Assembly: GCA_020072925.1 (NCBI GenBank)
Contig: JAIQGA010000001.1
Span: 1-64,000 of the forward strand
Direction: 5' to 3'
DNA: 64,000 nt
Origin: Terriglobia bacterium
GTDB taxonomy: Bacteria > Acidobacteriota > Terriglobia > UBA7540
This document shows, piece by piece, positions 31,618-47,898 of this stretch. Numbering within the stretch: the first letter of the stretch is position 1; each line of letters begins with the position of its first letter. A program made the translations under genes and the position numbers. The notes beneath the pieces are model-generated. The model did no database searches. It worked only from the letters and a program-made list of their open reading frames with translations, and was not told where the DNA came from.

Positions 31618-31953
31618 TTGACGATTACTGTCCGCAAGGTCGGAGATTTCAACGTCCTGGATTTGAAAGGACCTCTCAAGATCGGCGATGCCGAAAAAGC
31701 CTTTCGCACCCAGATCGACCAGCTCGTCCAAAGCGGGGCGCGGAACATTGCGGTGAACCTGTCGCAAGTACCCATGATGGATAGTTCCGGCATCGGTGCC
31801 ATCACCCGCACTCACAAGGCGATCACCGAACAGGGCGGGAAGATGACCTTCTTTGGCGCGCCCAAAATGGTCCGCATGACGCTGAAGATGGTGGGGCTCG
31901 ATCGCTACCTGGGAATGTACGAGGACGAGTCGAGCGCCGTTGCGGCGTCCTGA
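31618..31953 (+). CDS. STAS-domain anti-sigma factor antagonist
   Basis: 111 residues from a TTG at 31618; AAGGAG lies 12 bases upstream, rather far. One STAS domain with the phosphorylatable Ser in VPMMDSSGIGAIT and KMTFFGAPKMVRMTLKMVG after it. In partner-switching systems such a protein is phosphorylated by an RsbW/SpoIIAB-type kinase and, when unphosphorylated, frees a sigma factor or other target. A kinase gene of that type lies convergent, 17 bases from its stop. The same domain type is fused to GlmU at 42793-44568. Confidence 0.9.
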   Translation: MTITVRKVGDFNVLDLKGPLKIGDAEKAFRTQIDQLVQSGARNIAVNLSQVPMMDSSGIGAITRTHKAITEQGGKMTFFGAPKMVRMTLKMVGLDRYLGMYEDESSAVAAS

Positions 31954-31970: not shown

Positions 31971-32393
31971 TCAGGCGGCGCCTACCCGCTTCTTCATGAT
32001 CAATGAATTTCTCCCGGTTTCCCGCCGGTAATCCAGGCTGTCCATGATCTGCCGGACCATGTAAATGCCCAGCCCGCCCACGGGTCGCTCGTTGATGGGT
32101 TTGGTAATATCGGGAGGAGTGACCTGCAGCGGGCTGAAGTGCACGCCGTCGTCTTCCACCTGGATAGTAAGCTCGCCGTCCTGGAAATCCAGGTCCACCC
32201 GGATCTCATGTTGGCGCTTGTCGCGGTAGCCGTGCCGGATCACGTTGCTCACCACTTCGTCGAGAACCAAATTCAACTGATAGTCCACCTCTTCGGAAAG
32301 CGCCTGCCGGCTGCACCAGGCGGTTACTTCCGCGGCCAGCCTCTCCAGTTCCGCCAGGTTGTTCTTGAGCACTAGCGATATCCGCTCGTTCAT
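31971..32393 (-). CDS. Anti-sigma regulatory kinase (RsbW/SpoIIAB-like HATPase)
   Basis: 140 residues, one GHKL ATPase domain: N box LVLDEVVSNVIRHGY, G1 box VEDDGVHFSP and G2 box GGLGIYMVRQIMD. It lacks the histidine-kinase dimerisation domain. It should phosphorylate the Ser of a STAS partner, most simply the convergent neighbour. No sigma factor gene is nearby, so its output target is unknown. Confidence 0.9.
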   Translation of the reverse strand: MNERISLVLKNNLAELERLAAEVTAWCSRQALSEEVDYQLNLVLDEVVSNVIRHGYRDKRQHEIRVDLDFQDGELTIQVEDDGVHFSPLQVTPPDITKPINERPVGGLGIYMVRQIMDSLDYRRETGRNSLIMKKRVGAA

Positions 32394-38146: not shown

Positions 38147-39070
<924 letters not shown>

Positions 39071-39164
39071 CTCGGGTCGCGGCATGTGCGCCACAAGACA
39101 ACTCATCCTCGCCCGAGGATGCGGGGTCTGATTGTACCTCGAAGCACTTCCGCAATCGGAGGAA

Positions 39165-39275
39165 AAGATGCCAACACAGAGGTCGCGGAGGACTGATGGA
39201 GTTCACGGAGATGGCATACGGTATCTTGCTCTGCGGCCTCATATCCTCTGCTCCGTGTACTCTGTGTTGGGTCTT
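39165..39275. repeat. Inverted repeat of CAACACAGAGG type
   Basis: Left arm AACACAGAGGTCGCGGAGGA, right arm TCCTCTGCTCCGTGTACTCT followed by GTGTTGG. The arms are imperfect reverse complements about 50 bases apart, so a long stem-loop is possible. It lies in the gap of about 350 bases before arsR; no gene is seen there. Confidence 0.6.
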
Positions 39276-39371
39276 CTCTTCGTCTGCCGGTGAGGTTCTC
39301 TGTTACGCCAAATTGCCTGCGGACGCCTTGGCCTGATCTTCTTGGTCGGAGACGCATGCGGCATTTTTCCC

Positions 39372-39400
39372 TTGACATGTCCCCATTTCATATGCATAAT
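39372..39400 (+). promoter_or_regulatory. arsR promoter
   Basis: TTGACA (39372-39377), 17 bases, then CATAAT (39395-39400): a perfect -35, optimal spacing and a five-of-six -10. Transcription should begin near 39406-39408, about 10 bases before the arsR ATG at 39418, so the message has almost no leader. Confidence 0.8.
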
Positions 39401-39410
39401 AGCGCATATG
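39389..39410. promoter_or_regulatory. Probable ArsR operator
   Basis: CATATGC, 8 bases, GCATATG: a perfect 7-base inverted repeat that covers the -10 box and the expected transcription start of arsR. An ArsR dimer bound here would block RNA polymerase, and arsenite binding would release it (family knowledge). Confidence 0.7.
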
Positions 39411-39417
39411 AGTGATT

Positions 39418-39846
39418 ATGGATCGTGATGCGGAAGTCTTTCAAAGCCTGGCGGAGCCGACGCGCCTGCGTCTTCTGAACATCCTGCGGCAGGCGGGAGA
39501 GGTTTGCGTGTGCGAACTGGTGGACGCCCTCCAATTGCCGCAATACAACGTTTCGCGCCACCTCCATGTTCTGGCGCAAGCCGGATTGCTCGAAGACCGG
39601 CGCTGCGGCAAGTGGATTTACTACCGCATCGCAAAAGATCTGAAGCCTTACCAGCGGGCGGTGCTCCGCGCGCTCGATGAGCTTCGGGAGGAGCGCGAGG
39701 ACTTCCAGCAGGACGAGGCGCGCGCCAGCCGAAGGCTCAAGCTCCGCCGGGATGGCGCGTGCTGCTTGGGGCTGGGTGGGCTTCGCAGGCTGCTGAAGAT
39801 AAGGGAAGACGGGAAGGCGGAAGAAGTTCAAAAGTCGAAGAGTTAG
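39418..39846 (+). CDS. arsR: ArsR-family arsenic-responsive repressor
   Basis: 142 residues from the ATG at 39418; a GTG at 39412 is in frame. Winged helix with the As(III)-binding Cys pair in GEVCVCELVDAL, equal to the ELCVCDL site of classical ArsR, then LPQYNVSRHLHVLAQAGLLE as the recognition helix. The promoter overlaps a palindromic operator, and arsM follows, so arsenite induction is likely. The C-terminal residues EEVQKSKS are encoded by a text-like repeat (GTTCAAAAGTCGAAGAG) that runs into the gene. Confidence 0.9.
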   Translation: MDRDAEVFQSLAEPTRLRLLNILRQAGEVCVCELVDALQLPQYNVSRHLHVLAQAGLLEDRRCGKWIYYRIAKDLKPYQRAVLRALDELREEREDFQQDEARASRRLKLRRDGACCLGLGGLRRLLKIREDGKAEEVQKSKS

Positions 39847-39912
39847 AAGAGTTGAAGGAGTCGAGAGCACCGAACTCCACGCTTTAACTTCTTCAACTCT
39901 TCAACAGTTCAA
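39820..39912. repeat. Text-like repeats between arsR and arsM
   Basis: GAAGTTCAAAAGTCGAAGAG, AGAAGAGTTGAAGGAGTCGA, then the inverted form AACTTCTTCAACTCTTCAAC. The arms are reverse complements and could form a stem between arsR and arsM. It supplies the last codons of arsR. Confidence 0.65.
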
Positions 39913-39953
39913 TACGAGCCATCGTCCACAAAACTCATGAGGAGAGGAATCAT

Positions 39954-40730
39954 ATGACAAGCGACGAATCGGAAGCCAATGCCACCACCATCAAGAAGGC
40001 CGTGGAAGAACACTACGCGGCGATTGCGCAGGGGAAGGTGAAAAGCTGCTGCAATACGGCGGAACCAACGCCCGAACAACTCTACAACATTGCCACGGCC
40101 GTCCAAGGGTACAAAGCCGACGACCTCGCCGCGATTCCCGAGGGGGCCAATCTGGGCCTGGGCTGCGGTGACCCAACCGCCCAGGCGGATCTCGAAGCCG
40201 GCCAGACCGTACTCGATTTGGGCAGCGGAGCGGGAATCGATTGCTTTCTCGCGGCGCGGAGGGTAGGGCCTTCGGGACGGGTAATTGGCGTGGACATGAC
40301 AGATGCGATGCTCGCCAAGGCCCGCGAGAACGCCGCGCTCGGCGGGTTCACGAACGTGGAGTTCCGCAAGGGTGAAATCGAAGATCTGCCTGTGGCATCT
40401 GGCACAGTGGACCGGATCATTTCGAATTGCGTGATTAATCTTGCTCCGGACAAAGCGAAGGTTTTTGCCGAGGCTTATCGCGTCTTGAAGCCGGGCGGAG
40501 CCGTCACGGTTTCCGACATTGTTTCTTTCGGCGATGTCCCGCCGACCGTGCGCGCGGACATGGAAGCCTGGGCCGGCTGCACGGCCGGGGCGCTGGACAA
40601 GCAGGTTTATCTCGATACGATTCGCCGCGCGGGCTTCCGCGAGGTGAACGTCCTGAAGGATGTGACTTACGAATACCAGCGCGGCGCGGACTACGGGTTC
40701 GCGAGCGTCACAGTCCGAGCCGTGAAGTGA
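39954..40730 (+). CDS. arsM: Arsenite S-adenosylmethionine methyltransferase
   Basis: 258 residues; GAGGAGAGGAA before the ATG. SAM-binding motif VLDLGSGAGIDCFLAAR. The arsenic-binding cysteines of the family are present: CC near 32-33, Cys71 in LGLGCGDP, Cys159 in SNCVINL and Cys209 in GCTAGAL. It methylates As(III) stepwise to methylated, partly volatile forms. It is preceded by arsR in the same direction (107-base gap filled by a repeat), so the pair is an ars operon without an efflux pump in view. Confidence 0.95.
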   Translation: MTSDESEANATTIKKAVEEHYAAIAQGKVKSCCNTAEPTPEQLYNIATAVQGYKADDLAAIPEGANLGLGCGDPTAQADLEAGQTVLDLGSGAGIDCFLAARRVGPSGRVIGVDMTDAMLAKARENAALGGFTNVEFRKGEIEDLPVASGTVDRIISNCVINLAPDKAKVFAEAYRVLKPGGAVTVSDIVSFGDVPPTVRADMEAWAGCTAGALDKQVYLDTIRRAGFREVNVLKDVTYEYQRGADYGFASVTVRAVK

Positions 40731-40796: not shown

Positions 40797-41483
40797 TCAG
40801 TGCCCCGCGCCGAGACTCTGCTCGCTGACATGAATGCCGGTCGGCGTGCTGTGACCCTCGAGCTCGAGCGCGCGCATCAACTGATAATTGAGCTGCGTGC
40901 CCGCGGGCAGGTTCAGGTCTTTACCACGCCGGCGCATTCGGTCCACCAGTCCCGCCGTGCCGCCCACCGCGGCCCCGACGATGGGATGGTGGAAGATCAA
41001 TCCCAGAAGAGTCCCGACGCCTGTGCCGCCTCCAATCTCTTCAATACTCTCGATCCGGGAGGTCGGACCCTTGATGGTGCCTTCCGCCCCATCCACCTTG
41101 GCGCCTTCCGCGCCATAGGTGGTGAGCAGCACGGCGGTCAACGAGAAGGTGCGTCCGCCGGGCAGGGCGAGCGTTTCTGGCAGCAGGCGCATTTCGCCCA
41201 CGCCCTTGATGCGGCCCGGGCGTTGCAGATTGGCGATGCGGCCCTGGATCGTCGAACCTACGGGGATCGCCTCCCGACCGTCAATCATCACGGGTTCTGA
41301 GACGGTGGCCTGGAAGGCCTGACCCGCAGTATTCAATTTGGTGGTGAGAGTCTCCGCGATGCGGCAGTGAATTACGGTGCCGGCGGGAATGGAAACCTTG
41401 GCGCCGGTCGTTACAGTCGCAGCGGAGAGAAACGAAACAGTGGCGAGGCTTGCTAAAACGGCCAGCAAAGCGCGCTTGACCAT
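40797..41483 (-). CDS. Secreted protein of unknown function, TrbI/VirB10-like beta repeats
   Basis: 228 residues. Signal peptide (MVKRALLAVLASLATVSFLS, then AA). The middle has VSIPAGTVIHCRIAETLTTK, PVMIDGREAIPVGSTIQGRI and a C-terminal NLPAGTQLNYQL, short beta modules with IPAGT and VGSxxxG turns like those in TrbI/VirB10 and FlgA-like SAF folds. A Gly-rich hydrophobic hairpin (GTGVGTLLGLIFHHPIVGAA) may insert in a membrane. Exported; role unknown. It follows the third coiled-coil paralogue on the same strand, across a strong hairpin. Confidence 0.7.
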   Translation of the reverse strand: MVKRALLAVLASLATVSFLSAATVTTGAKVSIPAGTVIHCRIAETLTTKLNTAGQAFQATVSEPVMIDGREAIPVGSTIQGRIANLQRPGRIKGVGEMRLLPETLALPGGRTFSLTAVLLTTYGAEGAKVDGAEGTIKGPTSRIESIEEIGGGTGVGTLLGLIFHHPIVGAAVGGTAGLVDRMRRRGKDLNLPAGTQLNYQLMRALELEGHSTPTGIHVSEQSLGAGH

Positions 41484-41575
41484 GGTCTAACCTCCAAAGG
41501 TTTTTTCATGGCCGGACCCTGGCGCTTTGTCCAGCGAATTTCCCGATGTGGCAAAAACCCAAGCAGCAAAGCGTG

Positions 41576-41606
41576 GGGAAGTCCGGCAACAGGTGCCGGA
41601 CTTCCC
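41576..41606 (-). terminator. Strong hairpin after the coiled-coil gene
   Basis: Perfect 13-base stem: GGGAAGTCCGGCA, loop ACAGG, TGCCGGACTTCCC. It starts 12 bases past the stop of the gene ending at 41619 (minus strand). A T-run (GGGTTTTTGCC) appears only about 22 bases further on. Most likely a transcription end or mRNA 3' protection structure. Confidence 0.6.
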
Positions 41607-41618
41607 GCGTAATCCGTC

Positions 41619-42506
41619 TTAACGCGATCCCTCCGACCGCGTCGCGACTTCCACAGCACCCTTCGGAGTACTCACGTACCCCTTAACCTGGTTGGATTGT
41701 ACACTATTCACTACGAGTTCGAAAGGCCTTTTTGAGCCGCCGATGTAGAAAATGACGGGTTCATTGACGGTCCGCCCTTTCTTGTCGATCTGCATTTCGT
41801 CGGCGACCAGGGCCATGTCAAAGCGATGACGCTTGACGTTGGTTTTCTTCAGGATCAGCTCGACGTTCGCGACCTTCGAGGGACGGTTGCGGGTCAGGGT
41901 AAACTCGAAGTAGTCGCGCTCGCCCAGCTTACGCAGGTACTCGACATCCTGATGATTCCGGGCGATCAGATTCCCCAACTCGCTCCGGGCCATGCCCAGG
42001 TCGTTGGAGATTGTACTGACGGTCTTCTTGGTGGTGTCCAGGTCGGTCCGCTGCGAGTTCAAGTCCTGGGACAGTGCCCCCACCTGCTGCTGGTCGGCCT
42101 TCTGGGCGATCTGCTGCTTCAGTTCATCAGCCTGTTGCTGCTGCGTGGTCTGAAGTTGCTCGACCATGGCGCGGGCGCGGCGGAGTTCCACGCCATTCCG
42201 CCCCAGTCGCTTCGCGGCGTTATCCAGGTCTTCCTTGACGGCCTGCAACTGTTGGGCGTTGGAAGCCTCGAGTGCCGAAATCCTGGTGGAGATCTGTTGT
42301 TCAACCTGGGAGCTCAGGGCGCGCTGCATGGCGGCCTGCTGTGCCTCCAAGGAAGTACGCATAGCACTCATTTGCGTCAACGTGTAGACCTCGCCGATCA
42401 CCATCAAGGCGAGGATTACGAACACAGCGATGAACTTCGTCGTGTGTGACGACCCATCGGAGGGGTGCACCACGACTTCTTTGCTCGACATGTCATCAAT
42501 TGGCAT
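41619..42506 (-). CDS. Membrane-anchored coiled-coil protein (window family member 3)
   Basis: 295 residues. AAGGAG lies 9 bases before the ATG. A short cytoplasmic N-terminus, a transmembrane segment (about 24-43), a coiled coil (about 45-195, rich in Gln and Leu) and a C-terminal domain (about 205-285) with LILKKTNVKRHRFDM, NEPVIFYIGGSKRPFELVVN and SVQSNQVKGYVSTPK. The C-terminal domain is the same type as in the genes at 862-1824 and 1867-2859. Neighbour on the minus strand is a secreted protein. Function unknown. Confidence 0.8.
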   Translation of the reverse strand: MPIDDMSSKEVVVHPSDGSSHTTKFIAVFVILALMVIGEVYTLTQMSAMRTSLEAQQAAMQRALSSQVEQQISTRISALEASNAQQLQAVKEDLDNAAKRLGRNGVELRRARAMVEQLQTTQQQQADELKQQIAQKADQQQVGALSQDLNSQRTDLDTTKKTVSTISNDLGMARSELGNLIARNHQDVEYLRKLGERDYFEFTLTRNRPSKVANVELILKKTNVKRHRFDMALVADEMQIDKKGRTVNEPVIFYIGGSKRPFELVVNSVQSNQVKGYVSTPKGAVEVATRSEGSR

Positions 42507-42792: not shown

Positions 42793-44568
42793 TCACTGGG
42801 CATTTTCGGGCGCTGAGTCCAAGGACACACCTCGGCCCTCAAAGCTTGCGAGCGCGGCGGATTCGTCCGAAAAGATTTCAAGAACACGATCCAGCTTGGC
42901 GGCTCGAATCTGAGGCAACACGCGGTCGTTGACGCCGCAGAACTTCACTCTACCGCCGGCTTTTTGGGCGGCCATCTGGGCTTTGGCCAACTCGCCCAGT
43001 CCCGCGCTGTCAATATACATCAGCTTGGCCAGATTCACCAGGATCAGAGCGCGGCCAGAGTCCATCTGCGCGTGGATGGTGTTGCGGAAGAGTTCCACGG
43101 GTTCGCCCATAGTCAATCGGCCGCCCACTTCGCAAACCGTGACTGCTCCCACCTCGCGCACGGTGAACGTGGCTCGAGGAGGCGCCACGGCCTTTGACTG
43201 GCTTGCCCAGCCTACCTTAGTGACCTGCTTGCCGCGGGCGATGGCCAGCGACTCGGGCGGCACATCTTCGGTAATCGTCGAGCCGGCGGCGGTGTACGAG
43301 CCTTTCCCGATTCGCACGGGCGCCACCAGCATATTGCCGCTGCCGATGAAAACCTCGTCCTCGACGACGGTGGGATTCTTGGTCTTGCCGTCGTAGTTGC
43401 AGGTCACGGTTCCCGCGCCGATGTTTGTCCGCTCGCCCAGCGTGGCGTCGCCTAGGTAAGTCAGGTGCAGCGCCTTAGTGCCGCGGCCGACGCGAGACTT
43501 CTTCACTTCCACGAAGTTGCCAATGCGCGCGGTGGGCTCGATCACGGCGCCGTCGCGCAGGTGAGCGAAGGGGCCAATCACCACGTCGGACCCGGCCTGA
43601 GAGTTGACGATCAGCGAATGCGTCCGCACCGTCACGCGGTCGCCCAACACGGCATCCTGGAGGGTGGAGTATTGCTGGATCCAGCAGGCGCTCCCCACGC
43701 GCGTCCGTCCGCGCAGGCTTACGCCCGGCTCGAGCACCGTGTCGCGCCCCACCTCCACGTCCTCGTCGAGGTAGGTCACCTCAGGGTCCACGATGGTGAC
43801 TCCCTCGCGCATCAAGGCTTCGGCCTTGCGTAGGCGCAGCAGCTTCTCAATCTGGGCTAGCTCCGCGCGGTCGTTGATGCCCAGAACTTCGTGCGCATCC
43901 GCCACCGGAAACGCCATCACCTTCAGCCGGTGGCGGTTGAAAATATCGACGAGGTCGGTGAGCAAGAATTCTTTTTGTGCGTTTCGGTCGGTGATTTCGT
44001 CGAGGTGGGCGAGCAGCTTTTCCCGGGAAAAACACAGAATGCCTGAGTTGATTTCCCGGATCTTCCGTTGGGCGGGCGTGGCCACTTTTTCTTCCACGAT
44101 GGCGCGCACGCGCCCGCCCCGGGCGCGCACGATGCGGCCATAACCGTGGGGATTGTCCAGGTGCGTCGTCAGGACGGTCAACACGGCCCGCGTCTTCGCG
44201 TGCGTTGCCACCAGCTTCCGCAGGGATTCGGCCGGGTGCAGCGGAGCGTCGCCCACCAGCACCACCACCGTGGGACTGGGGCAGCGCGCGAGTTCCACCC
44301 TGGCAGCCTTCACCGCATGGCCGGTCCCCAACTGCTCCTTCTGCTCGATGAAGGTGAGCCCCGGCCGCGCGAAGGCCTTGCGCACCTCCGCCCCTTCGTG
44401 TCCGATCACCATATACACGCGCTCGGCCTTCGCGCCAAAAGCGGTGCGCAGCAGGTATTCTCCCAGGGGACGACCCGCGAGCTGGTGCAGCATCTTCGAA
44501 TGCTCAGACTTGAACCGGGTGGCTTTGCCCGCCGCCAAAATCACCACCGAAAAACCCTGTTCGGCCAT
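42793..44568 (-). CDS. glmU: GlmU (bifunctional UDP-GlcNAc synthesis enzyme) fused to a STAS domain
   Basis: 591 residues from the ATG at 44568 (GGGAG 6 bases upstream); E. coli GlmU has 456. Residues about 1-230 are the uridylyltransferase (VVILAAGKATRFKSEHSK, LVGDAPLHP, REINSGILCF). About 250-455 is the left-handed beta-helix acetyltransferase (HLTYLGDATLGE, NIGAGTVTCNYDGK with the family's active-site region). It makes UDP-GlcNAc for peptidoglycan and lipopolysaccharide. From about 466 to 575 follows a STAS domain (FTVREVGAVTVCEVGGRLTM, KLMYIDSAGLGELAKAQ with Ser521 at the phosphorylation site, GRVKFCGVNDRVL). There is no stop or plausible internal start at the joint. The fusion suggests partner-switch control of UDP-GlcNAc synthesis (inference). 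Confidence 0.9.
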   Translation of the reverse strand: MAEQGFSVVILAAGKATRFKSEHSKMLHQLAGRPLGEYLLRTAFGAKAERVYMVIGHEGAEVRKAFARPGLTFIEQKEQLGTGHAVKAARVELARCPSPTVVVLVGDAPLHPAESLRKLVATHAKTRAVLTVLTTHLDNPHGYGRIVRARGGRVRAIVEEKVATPAQRKIREINSGILCFSREKLLAHLDEITDRNAQKEFLLTDLVDIFNRHRLKVMAFPVADAHEVLGINDRAELAQIEKLLRLRKAEALMREGVTIVDPEVTYLDEDVEVGRDTVLEPGVSLRGRTRVGSACWIQQYSTLQDAVLGDRVTVRTHSLIVNSQAGSDVVIGPFAHLRDGAVIEPTARIGNFVEVKKSRVGRGTKALHLTYLGDATLGERTNIGAGTVTCNYDGKTKNPTVVEDEVFIGSGNMLVAPVRIGKGSYTAAGSTITEDVPPESLAIARGKQVTKVGWASQSKAVAPPRATFTVREVGAVTVCEVGGRLTMGEPVELFRNTIHAQMDSGRALILVNLAKLMYIDSAGLGELAKAQMAAQKAGGRVKFCGVNDRVLPQIRAAKLDRVLEIFSDESAALASFEGRGVSLDSAPENAQ

Positions 44569-44645: not shown

Positions 44646-44843
44646 CCAGCGGGGAATTTGGTGGTCTGCCCCTAGGCGTGGGAATCAACCTTTACGGAGG
44701 GGACAGAGCTGCCACCTCCCTCTCAATGATTGCTCCAATACGGCATTGTAAGGTTGAACGCGGCGGAAAAGCAAAACTCAAACTCGTCCGGGGCTTGCGC
44801 TCCCCCGCGCTTTGGTAGTAAAAGGTGGTTCCCAGCGTTCATT

Positions 44844-46397
44844 ATGGAGAGTATGCCTCGATTCCGCCTGGAGCGTCCGCTGCGGTGGCAGGACCTTTAC
44901 CGCGAGGCGGAATTGTACAAGGCCGCCGTGCGTGTGTACACCAAGCCGCTGTTTCAATGGCGCAAGGCCTTATCCACGTCCACGGACGGCAAGACGCTCT
45001 ACGATTTGGCGGGGCACGGACTTCGCAGCTTGGACGCGCTGCACCGCGCGCTCGCGCACGAGCGATTCGCGTTCCGGCCGGCGGTGGCGCTACACTACAA
45101 CTTCAACGGCAAGCATCGGACGCTCTACATTTCGCCGTGGGAAGAGCGCATCGTGGATTTGCTGCTTTACCGCCTGGTGAATCAGAAGTTGCATGGCTGG
45201 TTCTCGCCGAATTCCTACGCCTACCGCGACCGCACGCACGGACTTGACCGCTGCCAGGCGCGCATTGCGCAGGTTTTGCGCGCGGCCGGCGGGCCGATCT
45301 ACCTGGTGAAGCGAGATATTGCCGATTACTTCGCCTCGGTGAACCACGAGATTCTGCTCCACCAACTCGCCGGGCTGGTGGAGCGCGACGACTATCTCTT
45401 CGGGTTGCTCGCCCAGCGCGTGCGCTTCCGCTTCCGGGACGCGAGCGAGGAACATTGCGCCGAGATGGGAATTCCCTTCGGCGCGGCGATTGCCTGCCTG
45501 CTGGCGAACATCTACCTCACGGGTCTCGATCGGCAGATCGAGGAAATTCCTGGCCTCGACTATTTCCGCTATGCCGACGATTTGCTCGTGCTCTCTGCGC
45601 AGCGCGATGTTGCGCTCGCAGCGCGCGTCCGGCTGGAACAGGCGCTGGCGGACCTTCGCCTGCGAATGAAGCCCAGCCACTCCGCGGACCTGGTCGTAAC
45701 GGCCAGCGATTCTGTCTCCACAGCCGTGAGAACCACCTCCGATCAACCCTCTCCCTTGGGGAGAGGGTGTCCCGATCTATCGGGACGGGTGAGGGGTGAC
45801 GTTCCCCCCGACGCCAACCCGCCCAGCGATCCCGAATTCATTCCCACCCACGACTTCCGCCACCTCGGGTTGCTCTTTCGCGCCGGCGGTGGGGTGGCGC
45901 TCTCGCGCGACAAGCGCCGGAAAATTCAGAACCTGTTCCGGTTCGCCTTCCGTCGCGGCCGGCGACGTTGGAGGAAGGTCACAGACCCTGAGGCTCGGGC
46001 GCAAGCGGTGGTGGCCATCGCCCTCGAAACGCTTGAAAAGGGTGTACGCAACGTCGCCATCCTTGACTATTACCTGAAGCATGTGGACGACGAGGCGCAA
46101 CTGCGTCTGCTCGACCGCTGGCTGGCCGAGGAAGTTTTGAGCTTGGTTTTTGGCGGGCACAAGAAAGGTCATTTCCGGCGGATCAGTTTCGCGCAACTGC
46201 GCGCGATGGGTCTGCCATCGCTCGTGCACCGGCGGCGGCTGATCCGCCGGCGGAAAATCGAAAGCCCGTTTTTCATCTGGCAGAAGCAGCAGGCGATCCG
46301 AGCCTTCCGGGGGACGGTTGCCAGGCGGTCGCGCGCCCGAGGCGCCGCGGCCGCTTTCTCTCCGCGCCCAGAAGCAGCAGCCCGCGAATGCCCGTGA
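44844..46397 (+). CDS. Reverse transcriptase (class not assigned)
   Basis: 517 residues from the ATG at 44844; ATG 44853 with GGAG close before it is the alternative. RT motifs are in order: RTLYISPWEERIVDLLLYRL, SPNSYAYRDR, motif A VKRDIADYFASV (Asp158), motif B GIPFGAAIACLLANIYL, catalytic YADD (243-246), and FRHLGLLF near 338-345. A basic C-terminal region (about 370-490) could be the thumb. There is no visible maturase, HNH or protease domain, and no group II intron domain V nearby. Residues about 300-320 come from a palindromic repeat inserted in frame between the catalytic motif and the thumb. A zinc-ribbon and a PIN gene follow on the same strand. It may be a domesticated or defence RT. 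Confidence 0.9.
   Translation: MESMPRFRLERPLRWQDLYREAELYKAAVRVYTKPLFQWRKALSTSTDGKTLYDLAGHGLRSLDALHRALAHERFAFRPAVALHYNFNGKHRTLYISPWEERIVDLLLYRLVNQKLHGWFSPNSYAYRDRTHGLDRCQARIAQVLRAAGGPIYLVKRDIADYFASVNHEILLHQLAGLVERDDYLFGLLAQRVRFRFRDASEEHCAEMGIPFGAAIACLLANIYLTGLDRQIEEIPGLDYFRYADDLLVLSAQRDVALAARVRLEQALADLRLRMKPSHSADLVVTASDSVSTAVRTTSDQPSPLGRGCPDLSGRVRGDVPPDANPPSDPEFIPTHDFRHLGLLFRAGGGVALSRDKRRKIQNLFRFAFRRGRRRWRKVTDPEARAQAVVAIALETLEKGVRNVAILDYYLKHVDDEAQLRLLDRWLAEEVLSLVFGGHKKGHFRRISFAQLRAMGLPSLVHRRRLIRRRKIESPFFIWQKQQAIRAFRGTVARRSRARGAAAAFSPRPEAAARECP
45747..45797. repeat. Double palindrome inserted in frame in the reverse transcriptase gene
   Basis: CCCTCTCCC-TTG-GGGAGAGGG, then TCCCGAT-CT-ATCGGGA, then CGGGTGAGGGG. 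It encodes residues about 302-318 (PSPLGRGCPDLSGRVRG) in a loop-like region. The frame is not broken. Confidence 0.85.
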
Positions 46398-46605: not shown

Positions 46606-47097
46606 ATGGGATTTCTTGATTCGCTATTCGGCAAAGCGTGCCCGCGCTGCGGCACGAAAGGCGCGAAGGAATCCGGCGGCCGGATCCTTTGCCCCAACCC
46701 CACGTGCGCGTACTATGACGCGAGCCGTGGCGGCGGAACCAGCGCCGCCAGGTTCGCCTCGCCCTCTTCTGGCGGCGGCTTTACCTCCGCCAGCGGCCTG
46801 GCAATTCGTTACCAGACGGCCTCTGGTGAGGAGAAGACCTTCGATGCTGATGCCTCCTCAGGGGTGTGGCACAAGAATCACCTCAGCGTGAAGGTCGCCC
46901 CCAGGGGCGTGCACCTGACTCTCTCCCGTGACCGGATCCTGAATCTGAGTGAAATCGAGAGCGCCTTTCCGGCGCGCGTCGCCCCCGAACAGGAAAGGCC
47001 CTCGCGGGTCGAGCGCCAGATCCTCAACTTCCATAAGAAGCGCGGCTCGACCTCGCCGCGCTACGAAGCCCTGCGCGCCAAGTACCCCGACTGGTAG
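46606..47097 (+). CDS. Zinc-ribbon protein of unknown function
   Basis: 163 residues; GGAGG lies 7 bases before the ATG. An N-terminal zinc ribbon (CPRCGTKG, then CPNPTCAYYD) is followed by a Gly/Ser linker and a small beta domain (GLAIRYQTASGEEKTFDADA, SVKVAPRGVHLTLSRDRILN) that may bind nucleic acid or a ligand. The C-terminus is basic. It is 12 bases ahead of a PIN-domain gene, so the two are probably one transcript. Confidence 0.75.
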   Translation: MGFLDSLFGKACPRCGTKGAKESGGRILCPNPTCAYYDASRGGGTSAARFASPSSGGGFTSASGLAIRYQTASGEEKTFDADASSGVWHKNHLSVKVAPRGVHLTLSRDRILNLSEIESAFPARVAPEQERPSRVERQILNFHKKRGSTSPRYEALRAKYPDW

Positions 47098-47109: not shown

Positions 47110-47898
47110 TTGTACGATCTCGAAGATAAGCTCGCGAAGAAGTACAAGGGGGTCCTTCCCGGCTTTTCCCCGGAGTTCCTCGATTGTATTCATGAACTCA
47201 ATGCGGTGCGGCGAGCCCAGCGCGAACTTCAACCCTTTACACGCAACTTCCAGCCTCTGGGCAAGAAGCAGGAAGAAGAACGCCTCTACTACATCCTCGA
47301 TGCCAGCGCGATCCTGCACTTATATGTAATCGACGAGGACCTGACTCCCAAACTCGACCATTTCGTAGAACAGAAGGGTCTGGGCCGGGCGTTCCTCTTC
47401 GTTCCCAATTTCTGTGTGGCGGAAACCTTCAACACCTTTGCGAAATTCTATTATCGGTGGAAATCCCTGACGCCCGAGCAGTACTCACGCTGCACCGAAG
47501 CCTTCAAGCATGATATTCACAACGGCCACCTGCTGTATCACTACGAGCTGAACCGCTACCACGTGCTCAACGTGGATTACATCATTCCTTTCGAGCACCT
47601 GTTTGAGCCCAAGAGGCCGAAAGGCGTGAAGAAGGGCGAGGAATGGACGCTGAGCACGTTCGATATCCTCATCATCGCGCTGGGGATGGAACTGGCGCGG
47701 ATCACCGGAGGCCGGACCTACATCGTCACCTGTGACCGGCGCCTGCACAAAATCACTCAAGTCCTGCTCGGCCTCTCGACGCAACAGCGCGCCCAACAGG
47801 GAATTCCCGGCTTCGCCCAGTTCCCCCATTCCGTGTTTCTGCGTGAAAAGAAGCTCGTTGAGTTGCCTTACGTCGAAGGACAGAAGGTGGATGTGTGA
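47110..47898 (+). CDS. PIN-domain nuclease
   Basis: 262 residues from a TTG at 47110 (GAGGCGG 7 bases upstream). The four acidic residues of PIN nucleases are visible: YYILDASAILHLYV (Asp), FCVAETFNTF (Glu), STFDILIIALGMEL (Asp) and YIVTCDRRLHK (Asp). An N-terminal helical region of about 60 residues precedes the domain. PIN proteins cut RNA, often as VapC toxins or in RNA processing, but this one is twice VapC length. It is coupled to the zinc-ribbon gene and lies downstream of the reverse transcriptase. No VapB-like antitoxin is seen. Confidence 0.85.
   Translation: MYDLEDKLAKKYKGVLPGFSPEFLDCIHELNAVRRAQRELQPFTRNFQPLGKKQEEERLYYILDASAILHLYVIDEDLTPKLDHFVEQKGLGRAFLFVPNFCVAETFNTFAKFYYRWKSLTPEQYSRCTEAFKHDIHNGHLLYHYELNRYHVLNVDYIIPFEHLFEPKRPKGVKKGEEWTLSTFDILIIALGMELARITGGRTYIVTCDRRLHKITQVLLGLSTQQRAQQGIPGFAQFPHSVFLREKKLVELPYVEGQKVDV

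Follow-up and report, generated by a model that had tools for sequence, protein, structure and literature searches.

A GlmU enzyme with a C-terminal STAS domain in a family of Acidobacteriota and its possible place in partner-switch signalling

The synthesis of both peptidoglycan and lipopolysaccharide starts from UDP-GlcNAc, the sugar nucleotide made by the essential enzyme GlmU. In the window that we analysed, a stretch of 64,000 nucleotides from the genome of a Terriglobia bacterium, the reading frame of GlmU runs on into a STAS domain carrying a potentially phosphorylatable serine. This locus raises the question of whether the STAS domain is a genuine part of the enzyme and, if so, whether it could place the synthesis of a wall precursor under the control of a serine kinase. 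The features of the locus are compiled in Table 1.

Table 1. Features of the glmU-STAS locus and of the nearby partner-switch genes (positions in the window)
Feature	Position	Strand	Basis or remark
Stand-alone STAS (RsbV-like) protein	31618..31953	+	ORF and Pfam match; not a conserved partner
RsbW-type HATPase	31971..32393	-	Pfam match; orthologue in 2/11 assessable fused genomes
Third gene of the glmU cluster, conserved	40797..41483	-	Weak TrbI-like match below cut-off
Next gene of glmU, protein with N-terminal hydrophobic stretch and coiled-coil-like part	41619..42506	-	Conserved beside fused and unfused glmU alike
glmU-STAS fusion gene	42793..44568	-	591 codons from ATG 44568; 593 from ATG 44574
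STAS domain (Pfam PF01740), residues 473-574	42853..43158	-	Pfam match, AlphaFold2
Codon of Ser523 (593-aa numbering), Ser521 from the second ATG; start of helix 523-538	43006..43008	-	Alignment with SpoIIAA Ser58, AlphaFold2
Low-confidence stretch: end of beta-helix (433-461) and linker to STAS (up to 466)	43177..43278	-	AlphaFold2 pLDDT <50
GlmU core, uridyltransferase and left-handed beta-helix acetyltransferase	43192..44550	-	TIGR01173, residue check, PDB GlmU matches

The fused gene and its distribution

The minus-strand frame of glmU-STAS is free of stop codons from 44574 to 42793, encodes 593 amino acids when counted from the first ATG and remains open upstream of 44574. The second ATG is more probably the start codon because the sequence GGGAG lies 6 nt upstream of it and because relatives searched with the full protein gave matches starting at residue 2-3 of the 593-aa form. 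The initial annotation had described an uninterrupted frame of 591 codons in which a STAS domain comes after a GlmU with complete motifs. This description was borne out by a full-length match to TIGR01173 (residues 9-461, E 4.4e-163, 543.3 bits with an equivalog cut-off of 366.85) and by a match to PF01740 (residues 473-574, E 5.5e-9, 36.2 bits with a gathering cut-off of 22.6). The residues G16, R20, D109, N234, R340, K358, H370, Y373, N384, S412, A430 and R447, whose catalytic roles we take to be those of E. coli GlmU, are present and conserved, and the residue check found them intact in the fused forms. Judged by its sequence, the protein looks like a full-length, catalytically intact bifunctional GlmU. 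The best 50 matches listed by Foldseek for the model of the whole protein are GlmU and other nucleotidyltransferases only. A genome-wide search revealed no second GlmU in the host; this rules out that the fused form is a spare beside a conventional enzyme.

The order comprises 40 genomes, 39 of which, including the host, belong to a single family. GlmU carries the STAS domain in 12 genomes from eight genera of this family, the host included (G000, G003, G019, G017, G016, G020, G032, G006, G028, G011, G004 and G008). Some of these copies are imperfect: that of G008 is a piece at a contig end, that of G004 lacks a piece of GlmU, and in G020 (L061/L089, G020:C345) a TAA stop codon lies late in the GlmU part, within the acetyltransferase portion, after which the frame resumes into the STAS domain. 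Plain GlmU was found in 21 genomes of the family, the copy of G022 is cut by a contig end, and the family survey revealed no genus in which fused and plain GlmU are mixed. Counts of absence are soft because the genomes are, for the most part, incomplete and fragmented. Since the same fusion recurs in relatives, GlmU-STAS is not an accident of assembly, and the identical architecture likewise rules out a frameshift artefact. A lack of the STAS part in all close relatives, which the initial annotation had regarded as decisive against its reading, was thus not observed. In G015 (L066/L090, G015:C450), a STAS coding region with the motif SIDSAALGEL is located 3' of glmU in another frame, which may mean either that the domain is in the course of being lost or that the assembly is wrong here.

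The initial annotation had also proposed a search for the architecture across Acidobacteriota. Such proteins turned up in the host family, and there was no STAS part on GlmU in genomes of the same class or among the roughly 150 matches listed of a sample of 297 genomes from the phylum. A scan of further contigs yielded distant plain GlmU only, with named Acidobacteria among them, which served, alongside the initial annotation, to place the family in Acidobacteriota. Moreover, apparent C-terminal extensions of GlmU in eight further genomes of the phylum (L207-L214) were dismissed, as the long frames are due to open upstream sequence; beyond the GlmU core they continue for no more than a few dozen residues and encode no extra C-terminal domain.

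At least four gains or losses are needed to explain how the fused state is distributed over the GlmU tree. A single gain that was never lost is disfavoured, yet not rejected (p-AU 0.069), and a single origin of the STAS domain is not rejected either (p-AU 0.34, with a poorly resolved STAS tree). The simplest and most likely account is that the fusion arose once, early in the family and close to its base, and was then lost repeatedly in several lineages. As the STAS domain has probably been lost repeatedly, it is not essential to GlmU.

The surroundings of the gene are partly conserved, the pair at 40797-42506 (minus strand) adjoining glmU in much of the family. Diverging from glmU, a gene at 44730-46397 (plus strand) encodes a reverse transcriptase of 555 amino acids (RVT_1, E 4.4e-18; best PADLOC matches RT and RT_UG26), which was not seen beside glmU in relatives and is possibly part of a DRT-type or DGR-type element. 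It is followed by ORFs at 46606-47097, with a zinc-ribbon-like start, and 47110-47898, neither of which has a Pfam or PADLOC match. On the other side, genes for a beta-lactamase-like enzyme, an ArsR-type regulator and a methyltransferase, which is possibly ArsM-like, stand in a row at 38147-40730 (plus strand).

The STAS domain and its serine

The STAS region was modelled by AlphaFold2 with fair confidence (pLDDT about 83) and shows the alternation of strands and helices that is typical of STAS domains. The serine begins helix 523-538, directly after the loop. A single-sequence model of the STAS domain alone was poor. The serine highlighted in the initial annotation, Ser521 in the motif MYIDSAGLGEL, corresponds to S523 of the 593-aa form and aligns with the phosphorylated Ser58 of SpoIIAA. 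In the alignment partner PDB 1tid, which we take to be the S58A mutant of SpoIIAA, this position is occupied by Ala. None of the 12 fusions has lost the serine, which is still there in the out-of-frame copy of G015 as well. Moreover, Y-x-D-S-x-G-x-G is invariant in 12/12 fusions and is the longest invariant motif among these diverged STAS domains, whose pairwise identity is as low as 37% among the measured pairs; besides this motif, a small number of Gly, Leu and Ala residues are invariant. In SpoIIAA, Ser58 sits in a conserved loop (PMC8256260). Next to Ser58, SpoIIAA has another Ser; the fusions have Ala, Ser or Thr at the matching position, and a different residue stands in place of the Asp of the SpoIIAA 'GELD' loop. 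The score for the anti-sigma-factor antagonist model TIGR00377 is 43.1, which is below the cut-off of 53.45. In close pairs, dN/dS amounts to 0.17-0.26 for the STAS part as compared with 0.11-0.16 for the GlmU part, which shows that purifying selection acts on the STAS part.

Candidate kinases and possible roles of the STAS domain

The host genome encodes three stand-alone RsbW-type proteins (on contigs C41, C77 and C221), each with a STAS gene close by, and gives nine strong matches to SpoIIE (SpoIIE/PP2C) phosphatases. No kinase gene adjoins glmU at the fused loci examined. The kinase tree delineates a core RsbW (host copy G000:C77:1067-1441) that is encoded beside its own RsbV, a stand-alone STAS protein with the motif YIDSSGIG. 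Core RsbW and its STAS protein are present in all of the 11 assessable fused genomes, from which G032 (57% complete) was left out, and in most unfused relatives. In G006, which is 98% complete, there is no stand-alone RsbW besides the core protein, as the two other HATPase matches belong to frames of 515 and 1023 amino acids. If one RsbW serves GlmU-STAS throughout the family, it should be the core RsbW, and we infer that this protein, rather than the kinase encoded 11 kb from glmU, is the most likely kinase. However, since core RsbW also occurs in unfused relatives, co-occurrence provides no positive evidence for it as the partner. Genus g3, whose glmU is plain, has the core RsbW-RsbV pair 2.6-6.4 kb from this gene (L173, G031:C106; L174, G027:C189).

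The reading that we tentatively favour, at somewhat less than an even chance, is that GlmU acquired the STAS domain early and that an RsbW-type kinase binds this domain and phosphorylates its serine, thereby tuning the enzyme; we infer docking, phosphorylation, the identity of the kinase and the effect on GlmU. The STAS domain would act like a substrate of the RsbV/SpoIIAA type, which the kinase would bind and phosphorylate on the conserved serine, and a SpoIIE/PP2C phosphatase would reverse the modification. The GlmU trimer would bear three STAS heads at its tail, and their occupancy or phosphorylation could then tune the enzyme. The acetyltransferase end would be affected first because it is nearest to the STAS heads and because its active site depends on the C-terminal domains being arranged as a trimer (PMC2675579). 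This partner-switch model is favoured because the same architecture occurs in 12 genomes from eight genera, the catalytic residues are kept, the STAS part shows low dN/dS with an invariant Y.DS.G.G motif, the serine aligns with Ser58 of SpoIIAA, a single STAS origin is not rejected, core RsbW is found in 11/11 assessable fused genomes and SpoIIE phosphatases are at hand. There are also precedents, as the acetyltransferase of Mycobacterium tuberculosis GlmU is modulated by PknB phosphorylation (PMC2675579), and the phosphorylatable STAS protein HsbA of Pseudomonas aeruginosa binds the enzyme HsbD depending on its phosphorylation state (PMC5085249). Several points count against the model: the fused glmU loci examined have no kinase gene next to them, unfused relatives possess core RsbW just as the fused genomes do, the TIGR00377 score is below the cut-off, the GELD loop has another residue in place of its Asp, although core RsbV also lacks this Asp, a serine in the same loop is common in STAS domains generally, and the STAS domain was probably lost repeatedly.

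Taken together, the architecture suggests a possible wiring of wall-precursor synthesis to a serine-kinase switch. With more reserve still, we consider it possible that an RsbW-type partner switch acts directly on a peptidoglycan-precursor enzyme via a built-in STAS domain, coupling UDP-GlcNAc supply to a general stress switch in this family or reporting it to that switch, which would be the first known case. If true, there would be a direct link between partner-switch signalling and the supply of wall precursors in a little-studied lineage, for which the fused and unfused relatives are natural, ready-made controls.

A less probable explanation, to which we would give about a quarter of our belief, is that the STAS domain serves as a phosphorylation-independent scaffold, which binds another protein and places GlmU near enzymes of lipid A, capsule or cell-wall synthesis. 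STAS domains outside sigma control have diverse partners: that of DauA binds the acyl carrier protein, and MlaB binds its ATPase. A score below the anti-sigma-antagonist cut-off would suit such a role, as would the conserved gene of the glmU cluster whose product has an N-terminal hydrophobic stretch. However, unfused genomes have the same conserved genes next to glmU, and while most of the domain is variable, neither the serine nor the phosphorylation loop varies.

Somewhat unlikelier again is the idea that GlmU-STAS is an input to the switch. Here the fusion would compete with RsbV for core RsbW, so that the abundance or substrate state of GlmU would feed into a stress or sigma pathway while catalysis remains untouched. 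The position of the STAS protein upstream of the kinase in canonical systems (PMC10120452) fits this idea, as do the core RsbW with its own RsbV in all assessable fused genomes and the lack of any compensating change at the catalytic residues of GlmU. On the other hand, nothing in the sequence ties the state of GlmU to the exposure of the STAS domain, and no sigma factor was identified beside the core RsbW/RsbV pair.

The initial annotation had paired GlmU-STAS with the kinase and the stand-alone STAS protein encoded 11 kb away. Both genes are real, as judged from their ORFs and domain matches, and the kinase belongs to the right family and shares a contig with glmU-STAS. However, the proposal that they are the specific partner of GlmU-STAS is improbable. 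An orthologue of this kinase occurs in 2/11 assessable fused genomes and in 7/19 unfused genomes (Fisher p 0.42, a comparison of little power with one independent pair on the starred branches), and it was not found in the fused genomes G003, G004, G006, G011 and G016, which are 91-98% complete. Because of this sparse occurrence in fused genomes, it is not a family-wide partner. Moreover, the two genes are convergent and form no operon, and the 'DES-A' ending that had been taken as a link is common to STAS proteins of the family generally. The STAS domain of the host GlmU shares 36% identity with core RsbV (contig C77) as compared with 32% with the nearby STAS protein. Least probable of all, and by our estimate hardly to be expected, is that an ancestral fusion tolerated by GlmU is eroding as a near-neutral appendage: the repeated changes on the GlmU tree, the out-of-frame copy of G015 and the faster evolution of the STAS part would agree with this, but dN/dS is well below 1 in every computable pair, the loop is invariant and the fusion has been retained in eight genera.

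Comparison with known systems

The GlmU-STAS fusion appears to be undescribed in the literature searched, and the initial annotation had likewise pointed to no described enzyme of this kind; enzyme-STAS fusions as such are already known. Known GlmU (TIGR01173) is the same full-length enzyme with every checked catalytic residue, and the full-length chains found in the PDB have 456-503 amino acids; GlmU-STAS differs by about 130 extra C-terminal residues that form the STAS domain. With SpoIIAA and RsbV it shares a STAS domain with a D-S-x-G-x-G phosphorylation loop. Unlike these proteins, it is fused to an enzyme, scores below the TIGR00377 cut-off, and lacks both the Asp of the GELD loop and an adjacent cognate kinase. 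The GlmU of M. tuberculosis also has an extended C-terminus and an acetyltransferase modulated by Ser/Thr phosphorylation, but this extension is a short tail unresolved in the crystal, and PknB is a eukaryotic-like kinase, whereas an RsbW-type kinase is proposed for GlmU-STAS (PMC2675579; ref. 38 of PMC4619583). The glycosyltransferase-STAS protein all4160 of Anabaena is likewise an enzyme-STAS fusion; compared by architecture alone, it differs in its N-terminal STAS domain and in its enzyme class (cited in PMC8256260). Finally, in the HsbA-HsbD system the phosphorylation state of a STAS protein governs its binding to an enzyme, although STAS domain and enzyme are separate proteins in this case and the enzyme is a diguanylate cyclase (PMC5085249).
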